Source of the DNA: a virus
Length of the DNA stretch: 44,962 nt
Virus record (IMG/VR): IMGVR_UViG_3300036860_000505
Location: 1 to 44,962 of that record
Reading direction: 5' to 3' (one strand)
In this document: piece after piece, positions 7,684 through 41,131 of the stretch
How positions within the stretch are numbered: the first letter of the stretch is position 1
Layout of the letters: each line of letters starts with the position of its first letter
Program-made: the position numbers and the translations under genes
The notes under the pieces: generated by a model
Databases searched by the model: none
Told to the model about the DNA's origin: nothing
Seen by the model: the letters and a program-made list of their open reading frames with translations, nothing else

Positions 7684-8135
7684 TGGCCGACTACGCCCAC
7701 CGCACTCCGGTCGAGGTCATCCGCACCCGCACCCAGATCGAGGAAGAACTACGCCACCGCGGCGCCACCTCGTTCGGCTACAACATCGACGACGCCACCG
7801 GCGAGGCCATGGTCGCGTTCACCATCGCCGGCCTCCAGGTCCGCATGACCCTGCTGCTGCCCGACTTCGACGACGACGCCTTCCGCTACACGCCGTCCGG
7901 GCGCTACCAGCGCGCCCCCGCCGAGCACGCCAAGGCCTACAACCAAGAGGTCCGCCGGTGCTGGCGGGCACTCCACCTGATCGTCAAGGCGAAGCTGGTC
8001 GCCGTCGACAACGGCATCACCACGCTGGAGAAGGAGTTCCTCGGCGACATTCAGGTCGGCGACGCCACAGTGTTCGAGCGCATCCGTCCGGAGCTCGAGC
8101 GGGCCCGGCAGGCGATCACCGGCAGGTCGGCATGA
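7683..8135 (+). CDS. Conserved phage protein of unknown function
   Basis: 150 aa from ATG 7683. Reads YAHRTPVEVIRTRTQIEEEL, then FTIAGLQVRMTLLLPDFDDD, then RRCWRALHLIVKAKLVAVDN. From memory this layout (RTPV...RT..EIE, RWRAL.L.VKAKLEAV.SGI.T.E.EFL) is a common uncharacterised family in phages and mobile elements of diverse bacteria. The predicted fold is alpha+beta with no obvious catalytic residues. Confidence 0.75.
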   Translation: MADYAHRTPVEVIRTRTQIEEELRHRGATSFGYNIDDATGEAMVAFTIAGLQVRMTLLLPDFDDDAFRYTPSGRYQRAPAEHAKAYNQEVRRCWRALHLIVKAKLVAVDNGITTLEKEFLGDIQVGDATVFERIRPELERARQAITGRSA

Positions 8136-8401
8136 GCGGCCCTGTGACCCCTGACCAGCAGGCCGGCCTAGAGCTGCTGGAGGCGGCCTGGAAGGCGCAG
8201 CCCGCGCTGCTGCTGCCGGCGATGGCGGCGCTCTGGCGCGCCAAGAAGGGCCACCGCTGCGCCAACTGCGGCGAGCCGATCGAGCTGTCCCCGGCCGGCG
8301 GCGACCCCTACTGGTGGCACCCGGGCGGGCAGCACAGCACGATCTGGTGCGACGGCTGGGGAGACCCCGGCCAGACGGGGCGGGAGGCGACGCCGGCATG
8401 A
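8132..8401 (+). CDS. Small zinc-binding protein
   Basis: 89 aa from ATG 8132 (ATGA overlap). RCANCGEPIELSPAGG and a downstream WWHPGG..H..WC form a C-x2-C...H...C site. An N-terminal helix precedes it. Probably a small structural zinc protein; function unknown. Confidence 0.65.
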   Translation: MSGPVTPDQQAGLELLEAAWKAQPALLLPAMAALWRAKKGHRCANCGEPIELSPAGGDPYWWHPGGQHSTIWCDGWGDPGQTGREATPA

Positions 8402-8574
8402 TCGAACATCCGTTCGAGGACGGCTACCGCTGGGGCGACCAGCTCATCTGCACCCACGTCGAGGGTAGCCGGGTGTGCGGCAAGGCCGAGGCTGAGCACG
8501 CCTCAGCGGAGGTCGGTGGCGAGCCGGTCCAGGATGGCGAGCGCGTCGGGCCCGACGGCGGCGAGGTCGAGTAG
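8398..8574 (+). CDS. Hypothetical small protein, overlaps convergent gene
   Basis: 58 aa from ATG 8398 (ATGA overlap). The first 40 residues (MIEHPFEDGYRWGDQLICTH, then CGKAEAEH) look coding, with Cys/His residues that could bind metal. The last 24 residues overlap the 3' end of the convergent XRE/DUF5753 gene and are low-complexity Gly/Glu, so the natural C-terminus may have been altered when the leftward cassette inserted. Confidence 0.5.
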   Translation: MIEHPFEDGYRWGDQLICTHVEGSRVCGKAEAEHASAEVGGEPVQDGERVGPDGGEVE

Positions 8575-9363
8575 CGCCTTGAACGCCTGCCCGTAGCGGG
8601 CGACGTCGGCGGCGTTACGGACGGTCAGCGCGGCCGTCAGCGTCTCGACCAGCACCAGGTCGTCGGCGCCGTCGGCGCGCTCCAGGAACGCCGCGAAGCC
8701 CTGCCAGCCCCACGCCGCCGCCTCGACCTCCATCGGGATGATGCCGAGCAGCACGCCCGGCATCCTGGTGGCTTGGGCGAGCCGGTCGACCTGGGCGGCG
8801 AGCACCTCGCGCGGCACGAACCGCCAGCGCAGGCCGGCCTCGGTCAGCAGGAACTCGAACCGCCGGCCCGGCTCATACAGCAGGGTCTGCCGCGCCATCC
8901 GCTCGGTGACCCCCTCGGCGATCTCGGTGTCGCTCTGCCCGTACACCGCCGCGCGGGCCCGGTAGACGGCCAGCGCGTAGCCGGGCACCTGGAGCAGCCC
9001 CGGCACCAGCACCGGGTAATACGCGCGGTTCAGGCCGGCAGAGGCCTCCAGGCCGGCGGTGTCGCGCTGGAGCTCGGCCAGCCGTTCGGGTCGACCCCGC
9101 CAGGCGTAGACCTCGGTAGCAGCCGCCTCGGCAAGGTGGTCGAGGTCGATGCGCTGCTGGGTGGTGGCGCCGATGGCGGCCGCCCAGCGGTCGAGCAGGT
9201 CGGGCGAGGGGAACTGCCGGCCCGTCTCCATCCGGCTGACAGTGGACTGCGCCACGCCGAGCCGCTCGGCGAGCTGCGGCTGGGAGAGATGGGCGGCGGC
9301 GCGGAGGTCACGCAGCGCCTGCCCAAGCTGGGCACGTCTCGACGGCGAGTCCAGGACGCTCAT
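8503..9363 (-). CDS. XRE-family regulator with DUF5753 domain
   Basis: 286 aa from ATG 9363 (ATGA overlap with the DUF6879 gene). Residues 12-65 are the HTH (LGQALRDLRAAAHLSQPQLA, ERLGVAQSTVSRMETGRQF). About residues 95-280 match the DUF5753 ligand-like domain (VLVPGLLQVPGYALAVYRAR, then VTERMARQTLLYE). This architecture is typical of Streptomyces and related hosts, where many paralogues act with small partner proteins, but is uncommon as a phage core gene. Transcribed against its flanking genes, so probably an acquired lysogenic cassette. Confidence 0.9.
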   Translation of the reverse strand: MSVLDSPSRRAQLGQALRDLRAAAHLSQPQLAERLGVAQSTVSRMETGRQFPSPDLLDRWAAAIGATTQQRIDLDHLAEAAATEVYAWRGRPERLAELQRDTAGLEASAGLNRAYYPVLVPGLLQVPGYALAVYRARAAVYGQSDTEIAEGVTERMARQTLLYEPGRRFEFLLTEAGLRWRFVPREVLAAQVDRLAQATRMPGVLLGIIPMEVEAAAWGWQGFAAFLERADGADDLVLVETLTAALTVRNAADVARYGQAFKALLDLAAVGPDALAILDRLATDLR

Positions 9364-18704: not shown

Positions 18705-18979
18705 CGTGGGCCCCGCAGCACCAGCCAGCCGCGGCGCCACCACGGCAGCGCCGCGGCCTCGATGTGGAACAGCAGCGCTATCAGCTCGAGCTTGCTGGCG
18801 TCCGCCCAGCCAGGATGGCGGGCGAACGCCTCCAGCAGCGCCCGCACGTCGCGGGCGGCCTTTGACATGCCCTCGTTCCGGGACGCGGCCTCGGCGTGGC
18901 AGCCGGCGATCCATCCCGCTTCCCATTGCGGCCCGCGCTCGCGGAACTGCTCGCGGGTCGGGATGATCGGCGCGCTCAT
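18701..18979 (-). CDS. Small protein between tape measure and tail tip
   Basis: 92 aa from ATG 18979 (ATGA overlaps both sides). Helical, with IPTREQFRERGPQWEAGWIA near the start and LIALLFHIEAAALPWWRRGW near the end. No family recognised. Position suggests a tail-assembly or distal tail role. Confidence 0.6.
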   Translation of the reverse strand: MSAPIIPTREQFRERGPQWEAGWIAGCHAEAASRNEGMSKAARDVRALLEAFARHPGWADASKLELIALLFHIEAAALPWWRRGWLVLRGPR

Positions 18980-20592
18980 CGACCGCTCCCCAGCGCAACC
19001 TGGACGTCGCCGCCGAGGCTGCGGATTTCCTTGCGGAGCGGGTCGACCAGCACCTGGGCGAGCTGGCGGCCACCGATGCTGATGTGCAGCACCAGCGGCC
19101 CCCCGCCGCCGAGGCCGCGACCAGGGAGTGGGCTGTTGCCGGGCGAGCGGCCAAGCGGGACGACGGCCTCCGGTCCCGCCTCCCCGATCAGCGCCATCGT
19201 CGGCCGCCGCACGATGCCGCCGTGCTGGCCGACGATCCCGTGCCGGGACGTTCCGGGCGGGGCGCCGATGGTGACGAACCGGGAGAAGATGTTGATCGTC
19301 TTGCCGTGCATCCGGTCGATCGCGGCCTGGGCCCTGCGGGCGTCGCCCTGGATCTCTTGGAGCTGCTGGCGGGCGCTGCGCTTGAGATCCTCCCCGAACG
19401 CGACCATGGCGTCGCCGGCGTGGCCGGTGCCACCAGAGAGCCGGTCGACGACGTTGATCGCATGGCCGCCTGCGGTGATGAACGACGCGAACCCCGAGAT
19501 GAGGTGGGCGAGGAACTTCTCGGCCTGGAGCCACCCCAGCACCAGCCGCAGCACGCCCTCCAGGAGCACGCTGAGGACCCCGGCGAGGGTCATGCTGGAC
19601 AGGCGGAGCCCGTCGGTCTGGCGGTTGGCGTTCTTGGCGGCCGGGACGAAGATGCTCTGGAGCGTCTGCGCGAGCAGTTTGACCGAGTCGCGGTTGTTGT
19701 CGAACCACGTCTGCGCGTTCTTGAGGCCCGGCAGCAGGGTGCCGTCCACGAACGCCATCAGGCCGGCCAGCGCGCGGTCCTTCAGGTCCAGCAGGGCGGC
19801 GCCCAGGCGTTCCTTCACGTTGCCGGCCCAGACGTTGAACTTCTTATCGGCGTCGACCGCCGCCGCCGCCGACCCGCCGAACTCCTTGGTCAGTTCGGCG
19901 AGGATGAGCTTCTGCGCGCCCACCACGTCGCCGGCCTCGACCATGGTCTTGATCTGGTCCTTCTGCTGCTGGGTGAAGTTCACCCCGACCCTGCTCAGGG
20001 CGGTGACGCCCTTGATGGGGTCCTGCAGGGCCTTGCCGAGCTGGATGTTGGCCTTCTGGAGGTTGCTGGTGGTGACCTCGCCCTGGTTCAGCGCCGCCGC
20101 CATGTCCACGGCGGCAAACGTCGCCTTGTCGAAGATCCGGTCGGCCCCGACGTTTCTGATATTGGTGAAGGTCAGCAGGATGTTCTCGCCGCTCTGGATG
20201 ACCTCGTCGTCGACGGCGACCAGCTTGGACAGCCGCCCGGCGAGCCCTTCGACATCGCGGCCCGACACCCGAGCTGCGCCACCGGTCGACTTGATCACGG
20301 CCTGGGTCTGACGGCCGACCTTGGCGGCATCGCGGGCCTCGCCGATGAAGTCGTTGGCGGCCTTGGTCAACGCACCGATCCCGACGGCGGCGACCAGCGT
20401 GGGACCGAACCCGCGGACCAGCCCGCGGATCGGGCCGAACCCGGCGCGCAGGCTGCCATGCATCCGCGACGAGAACCCGCGGCCGGCCTTGTCACCCGCA
20501 GTGGTGACCTCCCGCACGATTCGCCGGCTCTGCCCGGTCGCCTGATCCTTCGTCTTGACGACGATCTCGACTTCGTTGCCCCGTGCGGCCAT
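18976..20592 (-). CDS. Tape measure protein
   Basis: 538 aa from ATG 20592, directly after the GT chaperone stop. Starts EVEIVVKTKDQATGQSRRIV, has a glycine/alanine-rich membrane-like stretch (FGPTLVAAVGIGALTKAAND), long helical regions (AAALNQGEVTTSNLQKANIQ) and hydrophobic segments near residues 340-390. It ends with GLGGGGPLVLHISIGGRQLA. Size and position identify it. At roughly 1.5 angstrom per residue it would set a short tail of about 80 nm. Confidence 0.9.
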   Translation of the reverse strand: MAARGNEVEIVVKTKDQATGQSRRIVREVTTAGDKAGRGFSSRMHGSLRAGFGPIRGLVRGFGPTLVAAVGIGALTKAANDFIGEARDAAKVGRQTQAVIKSTGGAARVSGRDVEGLAGRLSKLVAVDDEVIQSGENILLTFTNIRNVGADRIFDKATFAAVDMAAALNQGEVTTSNLQKANIQLGKALQDPIKGVTALSRVGVNFTQQQKDQIKTMVEAGDVVGAQKLILAELTKEFGGSAAAAVDADKKFNVWAGNVKERLGAALLDLKDRALAGLMAFVDGTLLPGLKNAQTWFDNNRDSVKLLAQTLQSIFVPAAKNANRQTDGLRLSSMTLAGVLSVLLEGVLRLVLGWLQAEKFLAHLISGFASFITAGGHAINVVDRLSGGTGHAGDAMVAFGEDLKRSARQQLQEIQGDARRAQAAIDRMHGKTINIFSRFVTIGAPPGTSRHGIVGQHGGIVRRPTMALIGEAGPEAVVPLGRSPGNSPLPGRGLGGGGPLVLHISIGGRQLAQVLVDPLRKEIRSLGGDVQVALGSGR

Positions 20593-21896: not shown

Positions 21897-22336
21897 CAGC
21901 CCTCTACCCTTCTCCTGGTCGCGTCCAGGCTCTGCTGCATGTCCTCGACCCAGTCCTCCGCCCGCTGGTGCACGCGGGCCGGGGTGCCGCGGGGGTTGCC
22001 GCGCCAGTCGCCGCCGCGGACCAGCAGCAGCGGCGGCCGCTCCAGCGGCACCTGATGCGCGGCGAAGCACGCCTGGCCGGCCGGGAAGACGAACACGGTC
22101 AGGCCGGCCTCGCGCTGCTCGGTGAACGCCCGGCCACTCTCCGCGCGGATGTAGTGCGCCTGCCGCTGGCCGAGGTCGGTGGCCTCGTCGACCCTGGTGA
22201 TCCACCCGCCGGCCTGCGTCTGGCAGTCGACCTCGCCGCAGGTCGCCGACCGCCAGTGGCTCGCAAGCGGCACCAGTGCCGCGTAGGTCTGCATCCCCGC
22301 GGCGGGCAGCGCAGGCTCCAGCCGGTGCAGCACCAT
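21896..22336 (-). CDS. Conserved tail-region protein
   Basis: 146 aa from ATG 22336, overlapping the previous stop. Notable parts are TYAALVPLASHWRSATCGEV, then CQTQAGGWITRV, and a conserved-looking C-terminus LVRGGDWRGNPRGTPARVHQ, RAEDWVEDMQQSLDATR. From memory, the R-GDWRG...H-R..DWVED-xQ motif marks a common uncharacterised siphophage gene in the tail module. Likely a virion assembly factor. Confidence 0.7.
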   Translation of the reverse strand: MVLHRLEPALPAAGMQTYAALVPLASHWRSATCGEVDCQTQAGGWITRVDEATDLGQRQAHYIRAESGRAFTEQREAGLTVFVFPAGQACFAAHQVPLERPPLLLVRGGDWRGNPRGTPARVHQRAEDWVEDMQQSLDATRRRVEG

Positions 22337-23073
22337 CAGAATGCCACCGCCGTGAGGTTGCGGGTGAAGACCACGGCGAAGACGGCGTTGGAGAAGGTGC
22401 CGGAGGTGATGGCCCGCAGGTAGCGCCGCACCGTGGCGGTGCGGCCGCCCTCCAGCCGCTGGCTGGTCTGCCCCGTCGCCGCGGTGAACGCCCCACCCGA
22501 GAGGTTGGCGAAGGCGGCGTCGTCGGCGGAGTCCTGGATGGTCACCGTCACGCTGGTGCCGGTGAAGGCGAAGACGTGCAGGAACGCCTGCCAGCCGAAC
22601 GCCGTGGTCACGTCGGTGTGGTCGACGCTGGCGCCGTTGGTCGGCGCCCCGTCGGTGCGCTTGCCGGCCGTCAGCGACCGCCCCCAGTCCAGGCCGAACC
22701 CATTGGCCAGCGCCTGCACCTTGAACGTCAGCGAGCCGTCCTCGCCGCGGGTGGCGTCGTAGTTGAGCTGCTTGGCGACCACGCTCGCGGCCGGCCCGCC
22801 GAGGGCGGTGCCGCGGAAGTAGCTCACCACGCGGTCGGTGGTCGGTAGCCCACGCAGCGCGAGGTGCTCCTGGTCGGTCGCGTCGTTGAAAAAGCTGGTG
22901 AACTCGAGCGCCCCGTCGCGTTGGCCGCCGAGGCGCTCCATCGCGCTCTTGTTGATCGCGGTCACGCCGAACGCCGCCGGCCCGCCGCCGATCTGGTCGA
23001 TGGCGCCCACGTCGCCGGACAGATCGAAGCCGTCGACGTAGCAGTTGTCGCCCAGCCCGGTACTTTTGGCCAT
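22336..23073 (-). CDS. Major tail tube protein-like (paralogue 1)
   Basis: 245 aa from ATG 23073. Reads AKSTGLGDNCYVDGFDLSGD, then FGVTAINKSAMERLGGQRDG, LEFTSFFNDATDQEHLALRG and LPTTDRVVSYFRG. The rest is beta-rich (HVFAFTGTSVTVTIQDSADD). The core resembles 21185-21592, with an extra C-terminal domain of about 100 residues that could decorate the tube. Follows the tail-completion genes. Confidence 0.75.
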   Translation of the reverse strand: MAKSTGLGDNCYVDGFDLSGDVGAIDQIGGGPAAFGVTAINKSAMERLGGQRDGALEFTSFFNDATDQEHLALRGLPTTDRVVSYFRGTALGGPAASVVAKQLNYDATRGEDGSLTFKVQALANGFGLDWGRSLTAGKRTDGAPTNGASVDHTDVTTAFGWQAFLHVFAFTGTSVTVTIQDSADDAAFANLSGGAFTAATGQTSQRLEGGRTATVRRYLRAITSGTFSNAVFAVVFTRNLTAVAF

Positions 23074-23825: not shown

Positions 23826-24226
23826 CAGTGGCCCCCGAGCTGCGCGACGGCGCGGTCGAGCAGGCCCTGGACGAGCTCGCCGCATCGCTTGCGGAGCCGG
23901 GGACGGGTGAGCTTGAACATCCGGTAGCCCTTGAACCGAGTCGAGGTGTTGCGCTGGCTGGTGCCCTCCAGCCACGGCCCGTAGAGGACCTCGGGGTAGT
24001 CGGTGATGATGGTGCGGCCCTTGGCGAAGTCCCGGACGACGATGGCGCCGGCGGTCGCGCCGGTCGGATGCTTGGGCTTGCTGGTGGCGCGCTTGCGGAG
24101 CTCGTCGCGGCCGGCCTCGGCGACCAGCTTGGTGGCATCGTCGAAGAACTGCTGGAGGATCGCCGGGCCGCGGCCCTCCATGAGCGGCCCCGCCACGGTC
24201 ACGTAGGCGCTGATGCGGGTCGCCAT
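23825..24226 (-). CDS. HK97 gp10-like head-tail joining protein
   Basis: 133 aa from ATG 24226. ISAYVTVAGPLMEGRGPAIL, QQFFDDATKLVAEAGRDELR and PTGATAGAIVVRDFAKGRTI fit the gp10/HK97-type completion family by layout, followed by a basic C-terminal helix. Encoded between the connector and the tail terminator candidate. Probably a neck protein; moderate certainty. Confidence 0.65.
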   Translation of the reverse strand: MATRISAYVTVAGPLMEGRGPAILQQFFDDATKLVAEAGRDELRKRATSKPKHPTGATAGAIVVRDFAKGRTIITDYPEVLYGPWLEGTSQRNTSTRFKGYRMFKLTRPRLRKRCGELVQGLLDRAVAQLGGH

Positions 24227-25278
24227 CAGACCGCCCGGCTCCTGGCCTGGCGGCCGTAGCGGGCCAGGGCGTCGCGGCGCAGGTCGAACAGGCCGCGGCC
24301 GGTGCCCTCCCGGGCCGCCTCGCCCTCCCCGATCACCCGCGCATACCCGGCAGTCTCCTGCTGAAGCTGGTTGATCGCCTCGGCGACGGCGAGGTCGCGG
24401 ATCAGCGCCGGCACGCGGTGGCGGAAGATGTCGGCGCCGGAGTCGTGGGCGGCGATAGTGGTGCCGAGCTCGCCGCGGTCCAGCTCCACCCCGGTCAGCG
24501 TGTACACATCCGCGCCGATGGAGTGCGCGGCCAGCACGGTGCCGTCCCAGGCGCGCTTCACCGTCAGGTTGTTGCCGGCCTTGTCGACGATCAGCATCCG
24601 CTCCGAGTCGATCCCCAGGATCTCCTCGACCGCGAACGCGGCGCCGTTGGTCACCTGCACGGTCACGTCACTGGAGGCGGCGGTCAGGGTGTTGCCGAGG
24701 TTCTGGGTGGAGTCGACCATCGTCTTGGCGGTGACGATCATCCGCTCGGAGTCGATCCGCAGGATGGCCCCGACGCCGATCCGCGCGGTCGACCAGGTCG
24801 CCGAGGAGGCCGCGCCCTCCGACGCGGCCAGGCTCGCGGTGAGGTCGCCGACCTGGTCCTCGTCGGCGGTGGAGCCGAATAGGCCGGTCACGGCGATGGC
24901 GCGCTGGTGGGTCGCGCCCGGCGCGAACGCCGAGCTGGACGCCAGGTCGATCTCGATGCGGGTGTAGGGCGGCCCGGAGTTCGCGGGCTCCAGGAAGTAG
25001 TCGCTGGCCGGGATCACGACGCCGCCGGCGACCAGGCTGGAGACGCTGATGACCTCGTCGGCGTCCAGCCACAGCCGCCACGGCCGCGCGTACTGGTGGT
25101 TCGGCCAGTCGAAGTAGCGGGTCGCGAGCTGCGGGTAGAACCGGCGGTGGGTCAGGCCGTAGATCGCGTCGGTGGCCGCCTCGATGGCCCGGTCGACCTG
25201 CGCGTCGTTGCGGGCTGTCTCTGCTACGTCCAGCGCGGCCTTGACCTGCTCACGCGCGCAGTAGAACACGCTGGCCAT
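24226..25278 (-). CDS. Head-tail connector/adaptor protein with internal repeat domain
   Basis: 350 aa from ATG 25278. The N-terminal helical bundle (FYCAREQVKAALDVAETARN, VDRAIEAATDAIYGLTHRRF) is the gp6-like adaptor fold, with RYFDWPNHQYARPWRLWLDA next. The middle (about residues 170-270) holds two similar blocks, AILRIDSERMIVTAKTMV and ILGIDSERMLIVDKAGNN, a beta insertion. It ends with a helix (DLAVAEAINQLQQETAGYA). Expected to ring the portal and receive the tail. Confidence 0.8.
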   Translation of the reverse strand: MASVFYCAREQVKAALDVAETARNDAQVDRAIEAATDAIYGLTHRRFYPQLATRYFDWPNHQYARPWRLWLDADEVISVSSLVAGGVVIPASDYFLEPANSGPPYTRIEIDLASSSAFAPGATHQRAIAVTGLFGSTADEDQVGDLTASLAASEGAASSATWSTARIGVGAILRIDSERMIVTAKTMVDSTQNLGNTLTAASSDVTVQVTNGAAFAVEEILGIDSERMLIVDKAGNNLTVKRAWDGTVLAAHSIGADVYTLTGVELDRGELGTTIAAHDSGADIFRHRVPALIRDLAVAEAINQLQQETAGYARVIGEGEAAREGTGRGLFDLRRDALARYGRQARSRAV

Positions 25279-25341
25279 CGGTCCCTCGCCCTTGCTTTCT
25301 AGGCCAGCCACCCTCGGGTGACGGGACTTATCTGCTGCTGC

Positions 25342-26808
25342 TTAGCTGATACTACCTGCGAGCGCGACCGCTTGCGTCGTGATCGCCCCGACCTCGTCCG
25401 GTCCTTCGGGGTTGATGTTGATCCCTGCGGGTGGGCCGACCCGCTCGGGCAGCGGCAGCGCCACCACCACGGCGATCACCGCCGGGGCAGCGCCGGCGCC
25501 GATAGCGGACTGCGGGACTGCGGCGATGGCGGCGATGGCGGCGGGCTGCGCTAGGGCATGGATGACGATCATGGCCAGCGGCAGCGCCACGACGGCCGGA
25601 ACCACGGCCGGCGCGGCGCCGACCCCCACCGCAGCTTGCGGCAGGGCGGCCACTGCGGCCAGGACCGCCGCGCCGGCGCCGACCCCGATGGCTGCGGCGG
25701 GCAGGGCCACCACCGCGGCGACCGCGGCTGGCGTGACAGTGGCGTCCCCGCTCTGCCCAACCGAGGTCGGAAGCGGCAGCGCCACGACCACGCCGATGAC
25801 AGCCGGGACGGCTCCCACCCCGACCCCGGGCTGCGGCAGCGCCGCCAGCGCCTGAAGGACCGCTGGGGCGGCGCCGACGCTGACCGCGGCTTGTGGGGCC
25901 GCCACGGTGGCGGCGATCGCGGCCGGGGCGGCGCCGACGCCCACGCTGGCCTGCGGCAGCGCCCCGGCTGTCTGCACCACCGCCGGCGCCGCGCCCACCC
26001 CGACACCAGCCTGCGGCAGCGCCGCGGTGCAGGCGATCGCCGCCGGGGTGACCGTCGCGTCGCCGCCACCCCCCTGCCCGACCGAAGCCGGAGCAGGAAG
26101 CGCGACGGTCACACCGATGGCCGCCGGGGCGGCACCGATGCCGACGCCCGGCTGGGGGAGGCTCGCGGCCGCAGCGATCGCCGCCGGGGTCGTCGTCTCG
26201 TTCTTGAACGTCAGGGTGGCGGAGAACTCCAGCCAGGGGACCGTGCCGGTGGTGTCGTTGTTGGCTGCGGTGCCGTGATCGGTACCAGTGCCCCCCAGCA
26301 CCATCTCCCAGTTCGGCGTGGTCCCGGTGCCCGACTCGCGGTAGCCGATCTCCACCACGATCCGGTCGCCATCGAGCGCGCTCACCGATGTGATGCCGCC
26401 GTTGGTCATGTGCTGCTGGCCGGAGAGGCTGGTCGACAGCTCCGTCGTCGACGCCGGGACGGTGTACGCCTCTGCGACACCCCGATCGGTCAGGTCCGGC
26501 TTGACGACGCGAATGGCCCGCGGGCGGCTGTTGATGTTGTCGGTCCCGGCCAGCTCCCGCCCACGGGACACGATCGTCACAGTCCCGGAGACGGTCTGAT
26601 CGCCCGAGAGCGGCGGCGAGATGAGCTGAACGATCAGGTCCTCATCGTCAGCGGTCCCGGCCAAGCTCCCCGAGAGGGTCTCGGTGGCCGACGCTTGAGC
26701 GAACCCCAGCTTGCGACGGACCGCCTGCGCGGTCGATGCCCAGTTGCTATCGAATGCTGGGCTGACCGGCGCCGCATCGGTGGCGACGAAGTACAGGTGG
26801 GTGACCAT
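25342..26808 (-). CDS. Repeat-containing structural protein (20-residue Ala/Val/Pro repeats)
   Basis: 488 aa from ATG 26808. Residues 1-200 form a beta-sandwich-like domain (DLIVQLISPPLSGDQTVSGT, VTIVSRGRELAGTDNINSRP, DRIVVEIGYRESGTGTTPNW). Residues about 208-460 are twelve repeats with consensus ALPQAxVGVGAAPAVIxxVV, mostly exactly 20 residues, three extended to 22-27 by inserts such as GDATVT. A short C-terminal tail follows. Encoded between head genes and the connector, so probably a virion surface fibre or decoration. I recognise no family for the repeat. Confidence 0.75.
   Translation of the reverse strand: MVTHLYFVATDAAPVSPAFDSNWASTAQAVRRKLGFAQASATETLSGSLAGTADDEDLIVQLISPPLSGDQTVSGTVTIVSRGRELAGTDNINSRPRAIRVVKPDLTDRGVAEAYTVPASTTELSTSLSGQQHMTNGGITSVSALDGDRIVVEIGYRESGTGTTPNWEMVLGGTGTDHGTAANNDTTGTVPWLEFSATLTFKNETTTPAAIAAAASLPQPGVGIGAAPAAIGVTVALPAPASVGQGGGGDATVTPAAIACTAALPQAGVGVGAAPAVVQTAGALPQASVGVGAAPAAIAATVAAPQAAVSVGAAPAVLQALAALPQPGVGVGAVPAVIGVVVALPLPTSVGQSGDATVTPAAVAAVVALPAAAIGVGAGAAVLAAVAALPQAAVGVGAAPAVVPAVVALPLAMIVIHALAQPAAIAAIAAVPQSAIGAGAAPAVIAVVVALPLPERVGPPAGININPEGPDEVGAITTQAVALAGSIS
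25429..26187. repeat. ~60-bp tandem coding repeats
   Basis: DNA counterpart of the twelve 20-residue repeats in the 25342-26808 gene. Units have diverged in third positions and in inserts, so the array is old and under protein-level selection rather than freshly expanded. Confidence 0.8.
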
Positions 26809-26823: not shown

Positions 26824-27273
26824 CTATGGGGTGTAGTCGACCGTGAAGATCCCGGAGGCCGAACGCTGGATGAGGAACGTGCCACCCGACGAGCTGGCCG
26901 CGTTCACGAAATCGGACAGGAAGATCAGCATGTCGGTGGTGTCGGCACCGACGACGAAGTAGCCGATCTCGGCCATGGCGTTGGCGATCGTCGAGCTGGC
27001 CCAGGAGGAGTCGGCCGCGTCGTAGGTGAGCACCCCACCGGAGATGGTGACCTCCGTCGCGGTCAGCACGACGCCGCCGGCGGTGTAGCCGGTCCCTGAT
27101 GCCTCATTGGCGGTGACATCGTTGCGGAAGTCGTGCGCGTTGTAGTCGTGGGTGTAGGCGTCCAGCTCCAGCAGGCCCTTGACCGCCGTCTCCGACTCCA
27201 GCGACAACGCGGCCGTGTCGATGAGCATCTTCTCCAGCGTCAGCCCATAGAGGCCGCTGGCGGTGATCGCCAC
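26824..27273 (-). CDS. Hypothetical virion-region protein
   Basis: 149 aa, GTG start sharing a base with the upstream TAG. Reads MAITASGLYGLTLEKMLIDT, then DFRNDVTANEASGTGYTAGG, VVLTATEVTISGGVLTYDAA and AMAEIGYFVVGADTTDMLIF. From memory, this beta-rich family recurs in siphophage head modules. Likely a minor capsid or decoration component. Confidence 0.7.
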   Translation of the reverse strand: MAITASGLYGLTLEKMLIDTAALSLESETAVKGLLELDAYTHDYNAHDFRNDVTANEASGTGYTAGGVVLTATEVTISGGVLTYDAADSSWASSTIANAMAEIGYFVVGADTTDMLIFLSDFVNAASSSGGTFLIQRSASGIFTVDYTP

Positions 27274-29401: not shown

Positions 29402-30787
29402 CTACAGGCTCAGCAGCGTCACGAACGGCGACAGGGTCGCGGTGCTGTTCTTGGGGGTGATGGCTGAGTTCAGCCACGGCCGCCCATCGAGCCGCTCGAT
29501 GATGCGGTAGGCCGTCTGGTCGTTCTGGAACTTGAAGTGCGGGCTGGACATGGCGGACATGACCTGCCGGTCGCCCAGCAGGTAGAAGCCGAAGTCGATG
29601 AAGTTGAGCGCGCCGGTGGTGCCGAGGCCGGGGACCTTCTCGGTGAGCAGGACGGGGCGGCCGAGCAGCGACAGTTGCGGGTTGCCGTGCATGTCGGTCG
29701 TCCAGGCACCGGCGCCGCCGACGTTCTCGGTCCCGGCGACGTTCTTGACCGGGAGTGTCATCCGGGCGAGCTGCGGGAAGGTGTCGATGCTGGCCACCCA
29801 GACCGCCCGGTTGAGCGACCCGGGCAGCATCCGGGCGTACATGGCGACGACGTCGTCCCAGAGGATGAGGTTGGCGGTGGTCTCGGTGACGGTGATCCTG
29901 GCGGCCCCGTTGAGGACCCCCAGCGGCTCACCGACCCCGGAGCCGCGCAGGAACGCGTAGTCCTCGTAGAACCCGAGCGCCTCGGGGAAGATCTCGTCGA
30001 TGAACGCCTGGAAGCTGATCAGGCTGTCGGAGATCAGCTCGTTGGGGACCTCGGTGTAGGCGGTGAGCTTCTTGGCGTCCAGCACGACCCGCCCGAAGCT
30101 GGCCTGGCTGGCGGTGAGCGCGGCGCCCTCCTCGGTCCAGTAGCCGACGATCCCGCCGAACACCGAGGAGACGTTGCTGGTGGCGTCGATGGCGGGGAAC
30201 GGGACCCGCAGCGTCTCCATCGGGATGACTCGGGCCCGCGGGCGGACGATGGCGGTCTCCAGCGCCACCCTGAGCAGCTCGGAGCGGAGCTGCTCGGGGA
30301 TGAGGAAGCCGCCCTCGCTGGGCACCGTCGAGCTGAACGCCGCGCGGATCCGGTGGAGCTTGGCCTGCGCGGAGGCATCGCGCTGACGGTTGTGCCAGAT
30401 CAGCGAGAAGAACTCCGAGCTGTCCTTGAACTCCTTGTCGATCGCCGCGCCCATGGCCCGGGGGTTGAACAGGCCACCGCGGGCGGTGGCGCGGTCCCGG
30501 ACCTCCAGCGGGTTGGTGAAGCCGAGGTTGACGGGGACGGCGCCGTCGGCGTCGCGCTGCTCCCGCAGCCAGTCGGCCAGGACCCGCTGGGTCTCCTCGC
30601 GGACCTGGGTGGCGATCGACTGGTCCTGGTCGTGCACGGCCTTGGCGTAGTTGCGCACGAACGACGCGAAGCCGTCCTTCTGGGAGAACAGCGCGCGCAT
30701 CTTCGTGGCGTCGCGCATGAACTCCTCGAGCTCGGCCGGCGTGGTCGGGATCGTGAGGTCCTCGACCTCGGTGGCGGTGGCGGTCAT
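29402..30787 (-). CDS. HK97-fold major capsid protein
   Basis: 461 aa from ATG 30787 (ATGA overlap with the protease gene). Residues 1-140 are a helical delta/scaffold domain (LEEFMRDATKMRALFSQKDG, THQ-like coil, WLREQRDADG), probably removed by the protease. From about 155 the HK97 core appears: VPSEGGFLIPEQLRSELLRV, IVGYWTEEGAALTASQASFG, KKLTAYTEVPNELISDSLIS, and near the end RIIERLDGRPWL. Forms the icosahedral shell. Confidence 0.92.
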   Translation of the reverse strand: MTATATEVEDLTIPTTPAELEEFMRDATKMRALFSQKDGFASFVRNYAKAVHDQDQSIATQVREETQRVLADWLREQRDADGAVPVNLGFTNPLEVRDRATARGGLFNPRAMGAAIDKEFKDSSEFFSLIWHNRQRDASAQAKLHRIRAAFSSTVPSEGGFLIPEQLRSELLRVALETAIVRPRARVIPMETLRVPFPAIDATSNVSSVFGGIVGYWTEEGAALTASQASFGRVVLDAKKLTAYTEVPNELISDSLISFQAFIDEIFPEALGFYEDYAFLRGSGVGEPLGVLNGAARITVTETTANLILWDDVVAMYARMLPGSLNRAVWVASIDTFPQLARMTLPVKNVAGTENVGGAGAWTTDMHGNPQLSLLGRPVLLTEKVPGLGTTGALNFIDFGFYLLGDRQVMSAMSSPHFKFQNDQTAYRIIERLDGRPWLNSAITPKNSTATLSPFVTLLSL

Positions 30788-31923
30788 GGCCGCGCTCCCT
30801 CCTGGATGGCGTCGACGAGCTCGTCGATCGAGATGGACGTGGGCGGCGGCGCTGGCCGCTTGGGCAGGGTGGGCGGGGCGGGGGCGTTGCTGTACACGTC
30901 GAGGATCGCGGCGCTGACCGTCTGCGGGTCGTAGCCGCCCAGCGGATCCAGGGCGTCGGCGACGGCGTCGCCGACGCCGGCGAACACCTCATCGGGCAGC
31001 TCGGCGAACACGTCATCGTGCGCAGGCTCGCCGGCGATGGTGGCCGGGGGCGCATCGGCGGTCGGGCCGGGCGGGGTGGGTGGCGCCGCGGGTGCGATGG
31101 CCGCCGGGCGCAACCTCGGCGCGGGTGCCTGCCGCCGGCCGGCGTAGCGGAACACCGACAGGTCCCAGCGGTCGGACGGCTGGTCCCCCTGCCCGTCGTC
31201 GCCCTGGTCGCCGCTGGCCTTGCGGCTACGGACCTCGTCGGCCAAGCCGGCCTGGACGGCCTCATCGGCGTCATACCAGGACTCCTCGACCATCGCCGCC
31301 CGCCAGTAGTCCACCGGGCCGCCGGCACGCTCGGCGTAGACCCCCGCGATCACGTTGGAGATCTTGTCCAGGTTGGTGGCCATGTCCCGCATGTCCGCGG
31401 CGTTGCCGATCACCAGCCCCCAGGCGTCATGGATCATCAGCATGGCGGCGCGGCCCATCACGACCCGCTCGCCGGCCATGGCGATGACCGACGCCGCCGA
31501 CGCGGCCAGCCCGTCGACCAGTGTGGTCACCTCGGCCTTGTGGTCGACCAGCGCCTGGTAGATCGCGTGGGCGTCGAACACGTCCCCGCCCGGGCTGTTC
31601 AGATGCAGATCGATCCGCGGGGCGGTGATCTCACGGAGCTCGTCGACGAGCTGCTGGGCGGTGATGCCCCACCAGGAGATCTCGTCGTAGATGTAGACCT
31701 CGGCGACCTCGCCGGCCTTGTTGGCGATGCGGTACCAGGACTGGCCCTGCCGCGCGACCGGGCGGGCCAGCCGGCGCCGCCTATCCGACATCGCGTCGTC
31801 CGTGCACTGCCCCTCCGTCTGGCGCATCAGCTCCGCGCACCACGCCTCCGGGTCGTCCTTGTCCTGGTTGCGGCGCACGCAGTCGGCCATGTCCGCGTAC
31901 TCGCAGTTCGGACCAAACGGCAC
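30784..31923 (-). CDS. ClpP-like head maturation protease
   Basis: 379 aa from GTG 31923. An N-terminal Cys motif (CEYADMADC, then DDPEAWCAELMRQTEGQC) typical of phage prohead proteases precedes a ClpP-like S14/S49-type domain: LHLNSPGGDVFDAHAIYQAL, nucleophile S142 in GLAASAASVIAMAG, and His 165 in MLMIHDAWG. A Pro-rich C-terminal extension of about 150 residues follows and may act in scaffolding. First gene of the leftward late operon and divergent from the terminase genes 93 bp away. Confidence 0.9.
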   Translation of the reverse strand: MPFGPNCEYADMADCVRRNQDKDDPEAWCAELMRQTEGQCTDDAMSDRRRRLARPVARQGQSWYRIANKAGEVAEVYIYDEISWWGITAQQLVDELREITAPRIDLHLNSPGGDVFDAHAIYQALVDHKAEVTTLVDGLAASAASVIAMAGERVVMGRAAMLMIHDAWGLVIGNAADMRDMATNLDKISNVIAGVYAERAGGPVDYWRAAMVEESWYDADEAVQAGLADEVRSRKASGDQGDDGQGDQPSDRWDLSVFRYAGRRQAPAPRLRPAAIAPAAPPTPPGPTADAPPATIAGEPAHDDVFAELPDEVFAGVGDAVADALDPLGGYDPQTVSAAILDVYSNAPAPPTLPKRPAPPPTSISIDELVDAIQEGARP

Positions 31924-34126: not shown

Positions 34127-34488
34127 GCACGACGCTCGCGATCGACTTCGACGGCGTCGTGCACGGCTACTCCCGCGGCTGGGTGGACGGCAGCATCTAC
34201 GACCCACCTGTCCACGGCGCCCGTGAGGCGCTGCTGCGGCTGAACGCCGCTGGCTACCGCCTCGTGCTGCATACCACGCGCGTGCGTGACGTCGACCAGG
34301 CCGCCGCGGTGCTGGCATGGCTGGAGGGCAACGGCCTGGACGGCCTGTTCGCCGAGGTCACCGACCGCAAGCCGCTGGCTGCCGCCTACATCGACGACCG
34401 GGCCATCCACTTCACGACCTGGCCGGAGGCCCTCCACGCCGTCGCGATCCTGCATCCACCCAAGCCGCCCAATGAGGAGTCCGCATGA
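34123..34488 (+). CDS. HAD-superfamily phosphatase-like protein
   Basis: 121 aa from GTG 34123 (GTGA overlap). Motif I is [11 protein letters not shown] (D8 and D10), motif II-like [10 protein letters not shown], and the C-terminal [10 protein letters not shown] supplies motifs III and IV. Compact, capless HAD proteins of this size occur in many phages as nucleotide or polynucleotide phosphatases. Substrate unknown. Sits between the Acb2-like gene and portal. Confidence 0.8.
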
Positions 34489-34727
34489 GCACCATGGAGC
34501 TCATCGGGGTCGGCTTCAGGGCCGCCCGCCAGGCACGAGCGCAACGGCGAGACCTCCGGGCCGGCACCCGAACCCGCGGCCGGCTGCTGACCGCCGTCGT
34601 CGAGCACGGCCTGGCCGTCGCTGGGCTGGGGTGCTTCACCGCCGCGGCCGCCATGGTCGCGGCCCCGCTCGGCCTGGCCGTCGCCGGCGTCAGCCTGTTC
34701 GTCCTCGAGCTGCGGGCCGGCGAATGA
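34485..34727 (+). CDS. Small membrane protein in packaging module
   Basis: 80 aa from ATG 34485 (ATGA overlap). A basic N-terminal helix ([20 protein letters not shown]) is followed by about 45 hydrophobic residues ([36 protein letters not shown]), one or two membrane spans. Function unknown; tightly coupled to the portal gene. Confidence 0.6.
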
Positions 34728-36181
34728 GGTCGACGCTCAAACTGCTGCGCAACCGCGCGCCGGTGCCCATGGCCAGCCGGATGCTGCAGCTCCCGCTGTT
34801 CCACCCCAACACCGCCGAGACGCAGATGCGCGCCTACGGCGCCGTCGGCACCCTGTTCGCCATCGTCCACCGCCTCTCGGAGGCCACCAGCCAGGTCGAC
34901 TGGCACCTGTACCGCACCACCAGCGACGGGCGGCGCCGCTACGAAGGCGAGGAGACCCGCACCGAGGTCACCCGCCACGCCGCCCTCGACCTCCTCAACC
35001 GGCCCAACCCGTGGGTGACCCGCCAGGAGTTCGTCGAGGCCACCGAGCAGCACCTGGAGCTCACCGGGGAGGGCTGGTGGGTCGTCGCCCGCGACGAGCG
35101 GTTCCCGGCCGCGGGGCCGCTGGAGCTGTGGTGCATCCGCCCCGACCGGATGGCCCCCGTCCCCCACCCGACCCGGTTCCTGTCCGGGTACGTCTACACC
35201 GGGCCCGACGGCGAGCAGGTCCCCCTCCAGCTCGACGAGGTCATCCAGATCAAGCTCCCCAACCCGCTGGACCCCTACCGCGGCCTCGGGCCTGTCCAGG
35301 CCGTCCTGGTCGACCTCGACGCCGCCCGCTACAGCGCCGAGTGGAACCGCAATTTCTTCCTCAACAGCGCCGAGCCGGGTGGGATCATCGAGGCCCCGGA
35401 GAAGCTCACCGAGGCCGAGTTCGACGAGTTCACTGAACGGTGGCGCGAGCAGCACCAGGGCGTCTCCGGCGCCCACCGCGTCGCCATCCTCGAGAAGATG
35501 AAGTGGGTCGACCGGTCCATCAGCCAGCGCGACATGCAGTTCGTCGAGCTCCGCAAGGTCGCCCGCGAGGTCATCCGCGAGGCCTTCGGCATCCACGGCC
35601 ACATGATCGGCCAGTCCGAGAACGTCAACAAGGCCAACGCCGAGGCCGCCGACACCGGGTTCGGCAAGTGGATGCTCCGTCCCCGCCTCGGCCGCATCAA
35701 GGGCGCCCTCAACGCCCGGCTCCTGCCCATGTTCGGCGCCACCTCGGGCGGGCTGGAGTTCGACCACGCCGACCCCGAGCCGCCCGACCGCCAGGCCAAC
35801 GACCGCGAACGCACCAGCAAGGCCAGCGCGTTCAAGACGCTCGTGGACGCCGGGGTCGACCCCGACGACGCCGCCATGCTGTGCGGGTGGCCGGCGGTCA
35901 AGATGGCCCCCAAGCCGAAGCCGGCGCCCCCTTCCCCAGCGCCCGAGCAGAAGCCGGGGCCGCCAGGACCAGAAGGGCGAGCAGGGCCGCCGGGACCATC
36001 AGGGGCACCTGGGACGCCAGGGGCACCAGGTCCATCGGGACCAGCAGGGCCGCCAGGGCTACCAGGGCTACCGGGGCTACCGGGGCTGCAGGGACACCGG
36101 GGACCACGGGGACCACGGGGACGGGAGTCGATGCGCCCATCTTCGGCGCCCGAACCGGAGCCAGCCTCGGCAGCGCCATGA
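34724..36181 (+). CDS. Phage portal protein with collagen-like C-terminal tail
   Basis: 485 aa from ATG 34724. Residues 1 to about 385 are an HK97-type portal: [80 protein letters not shown] and [20 protein letters not shown]. After a Pro-rich linker, residues 412-468 are nineteen uninterrupted G-X-Y triplets ([20 protein letters not shown] and on to [12 protein letters not shown]), then a short Ser/Pro tail. Triple-helix propensity is unexpected for a 12-mer ring, so the tail may bundle or protrude. Confidence 0.9.
35957..36127 (+). repeat. Collagen-like (G-X-Y)19 coding repeat
   Basis: Nineteen consecutive triplets starting with Gly within the portal gene. The nucleotide pattern (GGxCCx / GGGxCA) is uneven, and codon use (GGA, CCA, ACG) departs from the surrounding GGC/GCC preference, which hints at recent or distinct origin. 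Confidence 0.9.
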
Positions 36182-36384
36182 ACGCGACCCTCGCTGCCAT
36201 CGGCGAGGGCTTCTGCCCCTATGGGCACGGCAGGCTGGAGATCACCGACCTACATGGCCGACGGCACGGCACCTGCTGGCCCTGCGGTTGTAGCTGGTAC
36301 GTCGAAGCTGGCCAGGTGTGGGGTTGCGCCTGCACGCCCGAGGATCACACGTGCGGACAGGAACCGACCAATAACCAGCCCTAA
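36178..36384 (+). CDS. Small Cys-rich zinc-binding protein
   Basis: 68 aa from ATG 36178 (ATGA overlap with portal). Contains [20 protein letters not shown], then [12 protein letters not shown] and [11 protein letters not shown]: eight or so Cys/His that could bind one or two zincs. Last gene of the packaging module. Confidence 0.65.
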
Positions 36385-36744
36385 TTCCCGCCTGACCGGG
36401 GGCTAATTCGCACCCACCCGGCCGCTAATTCCCGCCCAGGGCCGGGGCTATTTCGCACCACCGGGAGGCTAATTCGCGGCTGGTATGTCCGGTTCGGGAC
36501 GCAGGAGAAAGCGGGAACAGGCCGAATCGGGCACTCCGGGCACCGCAAGCCCCTGACCTGGGGGTTTGCGGGGGGAGAGAAAGGAGAACCCCCGCCCTGT
36601 CCACCCCCTTGGTCGCGAGGTAATTTTCCGCGCGCCGCGAATTCTTCCGAGCCCTCCGTTTATTTCCACGTCGGCCCCTCGGTTATTTCCCATCGGCCCA
36701 TGGTTATTTACCACCGGCAGGGCTGGTGCCGTGGTTGAATTAGC
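36365..36744. repeat. Iteron-like array flanking a hairpin (origin or partition-site candidate)
   Basis: A 355-bp non-coding gap between convergent operons. Left cluster: CTAATTCCCGCC (36381), CTAATTCGCACC (36403), CTAATTCCCGCC (36425), CTATTTCGCACC (36448) and CTAATTCGCGGC (36469), at 22, 22, 23 and 21 bp. Right cluster: related TAATTTTCC, GAATTCTTCC, TTATTTCC, TTATTTCC and TTATTTACC motifs between 36620 and 36715, 19-23 bp apart. Inverted copies lie at both edges (near 36371 and GCTAATTC at 36744-36737). Helical phasing is typical of iterons bound by a replication or partition protein. Confidence 0.7.
36543..36571. terminator. Strong 11-bp hairpin between convergent operons
   Basis: CCGCAAGCCCC (36543-36553) pairs with GGGGTTTGCGG (36561-36571) across a 7-nt loop, with one G-T wobble. 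Well placed to terminate both the packaging and the early transcripts, but its central position between two repeat clusters also fits an origin structure. Confidence 0.6.
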
Positions 36745-38305: not shown

Positions 38306-38515
38306 TCATCGGCCGTCGTCGGTTGGCCGTCGGGCGGCGCGCTTGAGGTCGGCCCAGCCGGCGCCGATGGCGATGTCGGCGAGGACGTCGGCGGCGTCGA
38401 GGACGCTGGGCCAGTGCTCGGCCCAGCCAGCGGCCTCGAGGCGGTCGCGCAAGGCCCGGGCGGCGGCCGCGGTGGCCCGGGCCAAGTCCAGGTCGACGTG
38501 GGTGCCGAGGGTCAC
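38306..38515 (-). CDS. Hypothetical small helical protein
   Basis: 69 aa from GTG 38515, GTGA overlap with the ParB-like gene. Helical (LARATAAAARALRDRLEAAG, VLDAADVLADIAIGAGWADL) with a basic tail. Function unknown. Confidence 0.6.
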   Translation of the reverse strand: MTLGTHVDLDLARATAAAARALRDRLEAAGWAEHWPSVLDAADVLADIAIGAGWADLKRAARRPTDDGR

Positions 38516-40173
38516 GGCACCGCCGCGGCGTCGACGTCGCCGGCGGCGGCCTCGGCGGCGGGTTCGAGGTCCTCAGCGTCGGGCCGGTAGGCAGGGCACT
38601 CGCAGTCGTCGAAGGTGCACCGACCCTCGAGGTCCTCGTCGAGGTCGTGGTCATCCGCCTCGTCGCCGCAACGGCAGATCCGCAGCTCCTCGCCGTCGGG
38701 CCCGCCGGGCCCGGCCGGCTCCGCCGAGGCCTCGGCGCGGTCGGCCTCCAGCTTCGCCTGCTCGGCCTCGCTGAGCTCGTGGCCGGCGGCCTGCAGGGTG
38801 GCCAGGTGCCGATCGGCGACCCGGCCAATCCAGCGGCCCCAGCCGACCCGGAGGTGCTCCTCGGCATGCGCGAGCACGACCGCGCGGGCGACACGGCCGC
38901 GGATGGCCGGGTCCTCGGCGAGTTGCTCCAGGGCGCGGCGGTAGTTCTTGTACGTCCCGCCGTAGGACTGGGCCTCCTCGACCGGGTCCAGCTCCAGGAG
39001 CTTGCAGGCGGCCTTGGCGACGTTGGCCTCCAGCCTGGCCAGCAGCGTGCACAGCACGTCGTCGACCTGCTGGATGGGCTGGTAGGTCGCCAGCACCTCG
39101 GGGGCCAGCAGCGCGCGGCAGCGCTCAACGCGGATCCGCGCCGCGACGGTGAGGGCGCGGTCGTGCTGGCGGCGTTCGGCCTCCTCGCGCTCCCGCTTGG
39201 CCTGGTAGTCGGCCTCGCGCTCCCGCTTGGCGTGGTAGTCGGCGTCGGCGGCCGCGCGGGGGTCCTGGTCGGCGTGCAGCTTGGGGTCGCGGCACATCCA
39301 CACCCGCTCGCCGTGGGGGCAGACCGCGGCCGCGTGGCAGGCCCGGGCGGCATGCTCCTGGAGGGGGACCTGGACCAGCGGGTGGACGTAGAGGCAGCCC
39401 TGGTGGTCGTCGCCGGCCAGCGGCCGCGGGACGCGGTTGTACCAGCCACCCTTCGGCTCCTGCAGCAGCGTGATCCCCTGGGCCTTGAGGTCGGCGCGGG
39501 TCTGCTCAGCCTTGCGCTCGAGCGCCAGCCGGTCGAGGTCCTCCTTGACGGCCTGCTCGAGCGGCTGCCAGGCCGGCAGCTTGCCGTGGGCCTGCTGAAC
39601 GGCGAGCTCGGCGGCACGGTCGGCCAGGCCGGCGTCGACGAGCTTGTGGAGCTGCTCGGCGTTCGCCAGCGTGATACGACTCGTATCAAGCGCCTCCAGC
39701 GCCTCGATGGGGAGCTCCAGGAGCGCCAGCCGCGCGGAGACGGTCCGCTGGCTCACGCCGGTCAGCTTGGCGAGGTCGCGTTGGGTGGCGTCCGGATCCA
39801 CCTCCAGGAGGCGGGCGTACGCCGAGGCCTCCTCCAGCGGGGTCAGATCGGACCGCTGGACGTTCTCGATGATCATCGCCGCGACCCGCTCCGGCTCGGT
39901 GAGCTCCCGGATGACCGCGGGGACGGTCCGGAGCTCCAGGAACCGCGCGGCCGCGAGCCGTCGCGCGCCGCAGACCAGCAGGTAGTAGTCCTCGCGGGGG
40001 GTGACGAGCAGGGGCTCCAGGATGCCGTGGGCCTTGACGGAGTCGATCAGCTCCTCGAGGTCGCCGAGATCTCGGCGGGGGTTGTCGGGGGCGACGCGGA
40101 GCCGTTCGTCGGTGGGGAGCTGCGCCCAGCCGGGCGTCGAGGCCTCGGCGGTGGTGGGGGTGGTGAGGGTCAT
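38512..40173 (-). CDS. ParB/Spo0J-like protein with long zinc-rich C-terminal extension
   Basis: 553 aa from ATG 40173. The N-terminal ParB/Srx domain has NPR at residues 31-33, VCGARRLAAARFLEL (around 68-82) and IIENVQRSDLTPLEEASAYA (around 101-120). The HTH domain follows (ATQRDLAKLTGVSQRTVSAR). The remaining 330 residues are unusual: a Cys/His region (HAAAVCPHGERVWMCRDPKL), a coiled coil (YHAKREREADYQAKREREEA), and an acidic C-terminus with CRCGDEAD...CTFDDCECPAY. No ParA is seen. It may bind one of the two iteron arrays as partition or replication regulator. Confidence 0.82.
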   Translation of the reverse strand: MTLTTPTTAEASTPGWAQLPTDERLRVAPDNPRRDLGDLEELIDSVKAHGILEPLLVTPREDYYLLVCGARRLAAARFLELRTVPAVIRELTEPERVAAMIIENVQRSDLTPLEEASAYARLLEVDPDATQRDLAKLTGVSQRTVSARLALLELPIEALEALDTSRITLANAEQLHKLVDAGLADRAAELAVQQAHGKLPAWQPLEQAVKEDLDRLALERKAEQTRADLKAQGITLLQEPKGGWYNRVPRPLAGDDHQGCLYVHPLVQVPLQEHAARACHAAAVCPHGERVWMCRDPKLHADQDPRAAADADYHAKREREADYQAKREREEAERRQHDRALTVAARIRVERCRALLAPEVLATYQPIQQVDDVLCTLLARLEANVAKAACKLLELDPVEEAQSYGGTYKNYRRALEQLAEDPAIRGRVARAVVLAHAEEHLRVGWGRWIGRVADRHLATLQAAGHELSEAEQAKLEADRAEASAEPAGPGGPDGEELRICRCGDEADDHDLDEDLEGRCTFDDCECPAYRPDAEDLEPAAEAAAGDVDAAAVP

Positions 40174-40559
40174 GTGCGTCCTCCCGTTGACGCGGTGCTG
40201 GTGGGTCGGCCGCGGCGGCGGAGCTCGGCGACGACCCGGTCGACGTCGCGCGGTCGCCAGATGCCGGCGTCGGCGCCGGCGGCGCGGAGCTGCTCGAGGA
40301 TCCGGCGTTGCGCCGGCCGGATCGGGCCGCGGTCGGTCTTGAGCTCCCGCCACAGGATCCGGTCGCGGATCAGCAGCAGGTCGGGCAGTCCGGCGGCCTG
40401 GGCGTCGCCGACCAGGTGGCGGCCGCCGTCGTGGTCGACGACCTCGCGGCGGGCGTCGCCGACGTGCAGGACCGTCCAGCGGTACAGCGCGGCGAGCTCC
40501 AGGACCTGGGTCTGCCAGTCGGCCTCCGACAGCTTGGGCATGGCCCGGGTGGCCTTCAC
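40170..40559 (-). CDS. VRR-NUC domain nuclease
   Basis: 129 aa from GTG 40559, whose GTGA overlaps the corrected stop of the frameshifted upstream gene. SEADWQTQVLELAALYRWTV, then GLPDLLLIRDRILWRELKTD and IRPAQRRILEQLRAAGADAG with IWRP match VRR-NUC, a PD-(D/E)xK fold; D60, E72, K74 and Q84 are the expected active-site set. Probably a Holliday-junction or structure-specific nuclease serving phage replication and recombination. Confidence 0.88.
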   Translation of the reverse strand: MKATRAMPKLSEADWQTQVLELAALYRWTVLHVGDARREVVDHDGGRHLVGDAQAAGLPDLLLIRDRILWRELKTDRGPIRPAQRRILEQLRAAGADAGIWRPRDVDRVVAELRRRGRPTSTASTGGRT

Positions 40560-41069
40560 GACCCACCGCCGGAGCTGGAGGCCTCCAGGGCACGCCGCCG
40601 AGCGGCCCAGCCGCCGCAGACCTCGGCCGGAGTGCCGTCGGCGCGGTAGGGGACGCCGTCGATGCGGGGGCGGGCCGTAGCCGTCGACCTCGACCGGGAC
40701 GGTGACGCCGGACGGATGCCGGTAGGCGACCACCTTGCGCATGCCCTGATGGCACCAGAACCGTTCGCCCGTGGCGACGATGCGGTCCAGCAGCTCCTGG
40801 TCGCCGGCGTAGCCGTCCTCGCCGCGGCGTTCCGGCGACCCGGGCCGGTAGGCGCAGTCGTGGCAGGGCGCGGGGCGGGTGACGGGCTGGACGCCGGCGG
40901 CCAGGAGCTTGACCGCGGTCGGGTCGGGGTCGACCTGGTCGAGGTCGTAGACCGGCTCCCAGCAGGTGCACCGCTGCGGGCCCATGAAGGCGGCACCATC
41001 GCAGCACATGCCCCCGCCGGCGTCGGGCAGCTCGACCGTGGTGGGCAGGCTGAGGCCGCAGAGGTTCAC
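40556..41069 (-). pseudogene. Conserved Cys-rich phage protein with one-base frameshift
   Basis: Starts at GTG 41069. The first frame gives CHDCAYRPGSPERRGEDGYA, FWCHQGMRKVVAYRHPSGVT and EVDGYGPP; the expected continuation, RIDGVPYRADGTPAEVCGGW and AARRRALEAS, is in another frame and ends at 40556. Deleting one base from the G5 run at 40666-40670 joins them into a normal 170-aa protein. From memory, the C.DCAYRPGSPE...FWCH.GM...DGVPY.ADG...C.GWAAR pattern is a common actinophage protein. The next gene overlaps the corrected stop, supporting an indel (assembly or real). Confidence 0.75.
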
Positions 41070-41131
41070 GACCCACCACCGGCGATCGAGACGGCGCGGA
41101 CGGCCTCAGCCTGCTGAGGTCCCACGTTCAC
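41066..41131 (-). CDS. 21-aa leader ORF
   Basis: GTG 41131 behind GGGGAGGGG encodes MNVGPQQAEAVRAVSIAGGG then Ser, and its TGA overlaps the next GTG. Low size and composition; it may only couple translation. Confidence 0.3.
   Translation of the reverse strand: MNVGPQQAEAVRAVSIAGGGS

Follow-up and report, generated by a model that had tools for sequence, protein, structure and literature searches.

A phage protein with a predicted jelly-roll domain and a tail of 20-residue repeats, encoded between the major capsid protein and the head-tail adaptor

Surface proteins of phage heads and the setting of the repeat gene

Capsid decoration and head-fibre proteins such as Hoc of T4, pb10 of T5 and gp8.5 of phi29 have been reviewed, and those of other phages are thought to bind cell surfaces weakly and non-essentially (PMC7602432). 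Among actinophages, weak binding to the cell surface has been suggested for Rosebush gp17 (PMC7150772). The gene analysed here resembles the genes of such proteins in that it lies in a head block beside the capsid gene and encodes a domain with an extension. The window, by which we mean the whole stretch of 44,962 nucleotides, is a tailed phage genome of soil type with a G+C content of 69-76%. A 12-bp repeat array (GGCGGCGTCCCC) is found at both contig ends (1-163 and 44888-44962), and since both ends lie inside one array the sequence probably represents a single circular genome opened within it. Intergenic direct repeats of 22/44 bp, of the TAATTCCCGCC / TTATTTCC type, are located at 36373-36475 and 36652-36718 close to a ParB-like gene (38512-41079, minus strand) and are possible iterons or partition sites. 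The portal protein (34286-36181, plus strand) carries a collagen-like Gly-X-Y stretch at its C-terminus (residues ~556-613), which is unusual for a portal.

The repeat gene is the ORF at 25342-26808 on the minus strand and encodes 488 amino acids. On the same strand and in order of transcription, its surroundings comprise the head maturation protease (30784-31923), an HK97-type major capsid protein (MCP; PF05065, 29402-30787, assigned by Pfam and PHROG), an ORF with a SAP domain (Pfam), a phrog_644 protein of unknown function (26824-27273), the repeat gene itself, the head-tail adaptor (phrog_442, 24226-25311), the major tail protein (22336-23073) and the tape measure protein (18976-20592, PHROG). 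A gap of 15 bp lies between the phrog_644 gene upstream and the repeat gene, and about 30 bp separate the repeat gene from the adaptor. The initial annotation had assigned the gene to the virion region, which agrees with its position between MCP and adaptor in one block. A gene of the same family is found near the MCP gene, in the MCP-to-adaptor interval, also in the metagenomic locus L012 and in the Streptomyces phages Muntaha and Wakanda.

The plus-strand frame at 25342-26808 contains a stop and is meaningless. That the minus-strand ORF is itself an antisense artefact was rejected, because the N-terminal domain is conserved together with its start codon, which agrees with the start M-[AV]-T-[RHK]-x-Y of the relatives, and because the tail shares the same open frame. 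The encoded protein is modular. An N-terminal jelly-roll domain (residues 1-205; 26194-26808), supported by the family HMM, AlphaFold2 (AF2) and Foldseek, is followed by a tail in which short inserts interrupt a series of twelve 20-residue units at three places (residues 206-458; 25435-26193), recognized by autocorrelation, anchors, a DNA pattern and composition, and by a non-repetitive C-terminal end that was read from the sequence (residues 459-488; 25345-25434).

The conserved N-terminal domain

Residues 1-200 were predicted by AF2 with 27 sequences to be all beta with pLDDT mostly above 85, in line with the beta domain of about 200 residues described initially. In a Foldseek search of the PDB, the domain matched the C-terminal jelly-roll of cocaine esterase (CocE) and X-Pro peptidase-type enzymes (probability 1.00, E 2.7e-5); the TM-score to CocE is 0.27 over the 488-residue query and, by our own arithmetic, roughly 0.66 when rescaled to a domain of ~200 residues. 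Independently of Foldseek, the PepX_C profile gave a weak sequence match (E 0.016) in one of ten family members, and the window protein does not match PepX_C (PF08530) at the Pfam cut-off. Similar domains among the BFVD predicted structures belong to proteins of uncultured Caudovirales, several of which are annotated as collagen, S74-chaperone or RCC1. Searches with the window protein returned no match in Pfam, PHROG, NCBIfam or the PDB sequences, in accordance with the earlier statement that the repeat resembles neither collagen nor Ig-like domains nor a recognizable fibre repeat. Judged from these searches, the N-terminal domain appears to represent an uncatalogued and unnamed family.

Relatives were gathered stepwise from IMG/VR, and the profile built from them matched about 40 distinct proteins among the fetched loci, one of them (L054) weakly; the window domain, itself a seed member, matches with E 2e-64. 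Most carriers are metagenomic phages. Muntaha and Wakanda are the nearest relatives among named phages, and in a phage collection of 50,697 records the domain was found only in these two and in one environmental phage from Manatee Spring. The closest syntenic relative is L012, with 51-55% identity to the window domain in the alignment. A final viral scan for nearer relatives recovered only known ones, and a tblastn viral scan with the window frame gave zero relatives.

The protein of L012, at the same MCP-adaptor position as in the window, consists nearly of the N-terminal domain alone, and gp27 of Muntaha, encoded between MCP and adaptor, has little beyond it; the tail must therefore be accessory. 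Besides these two, L016 and L028 are tailless, and L006 and L030 contain the domain twice. The capsid site is not general, since some relatives are located in tail-fibre regions: the gene of L002 follows a minor tail protein and that of L007 a central fibre J protein. Two proteins of uncultured bacteria, both derived from MAGs, are pilin-associated. In L039 (6933-8951) the domain stands behind a pilin-like N-terminus with an N_methyl match below the Pfam cut-off, and in L041 (2403-4925) it is part of a secreted protein whose neighbours we read from their sequences as pilus-like genes.

The arrangement in L039 would fit ligand binding rather than anchoring by the domain. The polarity of the protein could accordingly be the reverse of the one we prefer, with the jelly-roll as exposed ligand-binding head and the hydrophobic tail oligomerizing or docking into the virion. 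The resemblance of the jelly-roll to galactose-binding-like domains points in the same direction, and a tail nearly free of charge would suit burial. However, the tail cannot serve as a general anchor, because it varies completely or, in several relatives, is missing, in contrast to the conserved domain; in addition, lectin-like or hydrolase domains occur within tails. We therefore regard reversed polarity as unlikely.

The 20-residue repeat and the tails of relatives

The initial annotation had described twelve repeats of one consensus after the N-terminal domain, with an exact 20-residue period and rare inserts, and the analysis of the tail confirms this description. At lag 20 the identity autocorrelation of the tail reaches 0.331, whereas shuffles give 0.163 and the highest of 500 gives 0.221 (z 8.1); a harmonic follows at 40, and z exceeds 3 only at lags 20, 40 and 42. 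The twelve units are marked by P-A-[VA]-[IV] anchors at residues 208, 228, 255, 275, 295, 315, 335, 360, 380, 400, 422 and 442, the one at 380 with A in place of P. Their spacings (20, 27, 20, 20, 20, 20, 25, 20, 20, 22 and 20) are exactly 20 in eight of eleven cases, and the inserts comprise 7, 5 and 2 residues. A DNA pattern spanning two consecutive units has four matches in the window, all within the gene, and none in 100 shuffles. The 253 residues of the tail (206-458) are rich in A, V, G and P; only 4 are charged, and K, N and F/W/Y are missing entirely. Pentapeptide-repeat coils are also 20 residues long, but a pentapeptide-repeat beta-helix was rejected because neither a 5- nor a 10-residue period stands out from shuffles in the window tail.

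In the eight clean units of the window tail, residues identical between units share the same codon in 53% of cases (0.535), close to the 46% (0.455) expected from codon usage. This argues that the repeat is maintained at the protein level and rules out recent DNA duplication as its origin. On the evidence of the codons, the copies are of long standing and have been preserved by selection at the protein level.

The fold of the tail is less clear than its period. In the full-length AF2 monomer, the structure prediction that the initial annotation had named as a check, the N-terminal domain is confident and residues 250-410 reach a pLDDT of about 30-37 with no confident fold. Multiple alignments of the unlike tails were messy or staggered and were left out of folding. 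A single-sequence model of the L002 tail shows two strands per 20 residues in its first part (strands 2-8, 12-15, 23-28, 32-35, 43-48, 52-55 and onward) and is less regular afterwards, with block-mean pLDDT not above 77 and pTM 0.54. Foldseek found no significant match to this model in the PDB; several of the sub-significant entries are, we presume, beta-helix proteins. A repeat with two strands per rung is the best available model of the tail, at modest confidence. The earlier suggestion of a beta-solenoid thus finds indirect support in the modelled tail of this relative, and such a fold is putative for the window tail itself; a solenoid is defined by one coil per repeat with parallel stacked strands, compared with two strands per 20 residues in the modest model of L002.

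Low pLDDT, together with an A/V/G/P-rich and nearly chargeless composition, could also mean that the tail lacks a fixed fold and acts as a hydrophobic linker, intrinsically disordered or elastin-like. We consider this unlikely, as the 20-residue spacing is strictly kept while synonymous sites are nearly randomized, the same spacing recurs in relatives with different-looking sequences, and ordered beta structure is predicted for the tail of L002. Failure of a monomer prediction would be expected, too, if the tail formed a trimeric beta fibre similar to a triple beta-spiral instead of a monomeric solenoid; the protein would then be a fibre of the neck or tail. Trimeric fibres often consist of short strands that recur with prolines at the turns, and relatives are found in tail-fibre regions. 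On the other hand, triple beta-spirals have repeats of about 15 residues compared with 20 in the window tail, the L002 tail already shows regular strands when modelled as a monomer, and no trimerization domain was recognized in the window protein. We judge the trimeric fibre to be somewhat unlikely. These readings overlap in part with the one we prefer, a surface protein with a projecting stalk, because a decoration protein could own a trimeric stalk, and the confidences we attach to them do not sum to one.

Tail content varies from relative to relative. Among the 29 tails of at least 70 amino acids, eight are strongly periodic at a threshold of z 7, with a period of exactly 20 in five, 18 in two and 6 in one. 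Repeats of 20 residues with unlike sequences occur in the window, L002, L014, L031 and L102, and repeats of 18 residues in L027 and L029. In L002 the repeats are interrupted by a lectin-like LamG domain, the tail of L009 is a GDSL hydrolase, and that of L040 consists of Ser/Pro/Ala repeats, in which SLSPSA repeats extend over about 1,100 residues after the N-terminal domain (L040:7554-11648). Adjoining the domain gene of L028 is a gene (7327-8955) whose product is made up of 14-residue RITATTLRTITGVA repeats that are nearly perfect. No shared sequence was detected among the periodic tails, and profiles of the four tails compared were no more alike than column-permuted controls; sequence homology between the tails is not supported on this basis, leaving the period alone in common.

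L102 was reached by a period-60 DNA pattern and not by the domain search, the match being antisense to a real protein with the N-terminal domain and a 20-residue tail, and it is therefore a partly independent instance. Phage contigs also encode tails with the 20-residue period that follow other N-termini, among the background ORFs of the same loci (L005:3479-4963 and L009:3836-5428) as well as in L048:3163-7188 and L054:9012-11813; thus, this type of repeat is not bound to the domain. Other searches for the repeat gave less. The VTPAxVA DNA pattern with period 60 mostly matched collagen and other genes read in antisense, its matches in L048 and L054 being antisense to real 20-residue-repeat genes. 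Among the matches listed for a three-unit PA-P pattern, most are pentapeptide repeats and antisense artefacts, and L102 is real. Whether the query was the repeat by itself or an actinophage-like VTPATV consensus, tblastn gave no matches, most likely because low-complexity filtering masks the repeat, and a search of one literature library found no papers on such 20-residue repeats.

A proposed surface stalk and its comparison with known systems

On balance, we favor the view that the gene encodes a modular, surface-exposed protein of the virion head or neck, in which a conserved jelly-roll bears a projecting stalk; this stalk, composed of 20-residue beta repeats with two strands each, would make weak, non-essential host contacts. 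The N-terminal jelly-roll, similar to the C-terminal domain of CocE and PepX with its galactose-binding-like fold, would act as the common unit. The stalk at its C-terminus would project outward from the particle and might touch the host cell surface or the surroundings. Stalks would be exchangeable, such that the same virion surface unit could display different extensions. Presence of the protein in virions is predicted, and outward projection is inferred; the adhesion role, the beta fold of the window's own tail, and the oligomeric state and ligand of the protein are putative. A conserved domain with swapped or absent extensions, genes in head blocks as well as fibre regions, and adhesin- or enzyme-like modules in other tails (LamG in L002, GDSL hydrolase in L009) fit such a stalk-displaying unit. 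Against it stand the window tail without a confident AF2 fold and the modest model of the L002 tail. The initial annotation, made from the sequence alone, could not reveal that conservation lies in the N-terminal domain and that the repeat is an extension which relatives exchange or lack.

More tentatively, we speculate that environmental phages combine one jelly-roll with freely exchangeable stalks in which selection holds the length of the 20-residue beta rung and not its sequence, which would constitute a new class of beta fibre. If real, this class would extend to other N-termini in the same phages, for example those of L005:3479-4963, L048 and L054. If our reading is true, an uncatalogued family of phage surface domains would receive a name, odd repeat proteins would be explained as stalks that replace one another on a common platform, and a 20-residue beta repeat with fixed period would tolerate widely variable sequence. 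Because the domain occurs in two cultured Streptomyces phages, the surface-protein reading is testable now.

Among known systems, collagen-like phage fibres share with the window protein a regular low-complexity extension; a collagen-like reading was rejected since the tail has no Gly-X-Y period of 3, and the true collagen-like tail of this genome sits on the portal. Pentapeptide, triple beta-spiral and HET-s repeats, as examples of beta-solenoids and trimeric fibres, may resemble the tail in their short beta strands and fixed repeat length, as far as the model of L002 can be transferred, whereas the tail has no sequence match to them. The N-terminal domain shares its predicted jelly-roll fold with the non-catalytic C-terminal domain of CocE (PepX_C, PF08530), but it is free-standing, with no alpha/beta hydrolase attached. 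By analogy with decoration proteins, an optional and likely cell-surface contact role may be assumed for the window protein, for which capsid binding is putative. It differs from them in having no Ig-like domain or coiled coil; an Ig-like reading was rejected in the absence of a Pfam Ig match, and the protein falls outside the Hoc-type subclass. Instead, its jelly-roll resembles the C-terminal domain of CocE and appears to be joined to a tail of 20-residue beta repeats.
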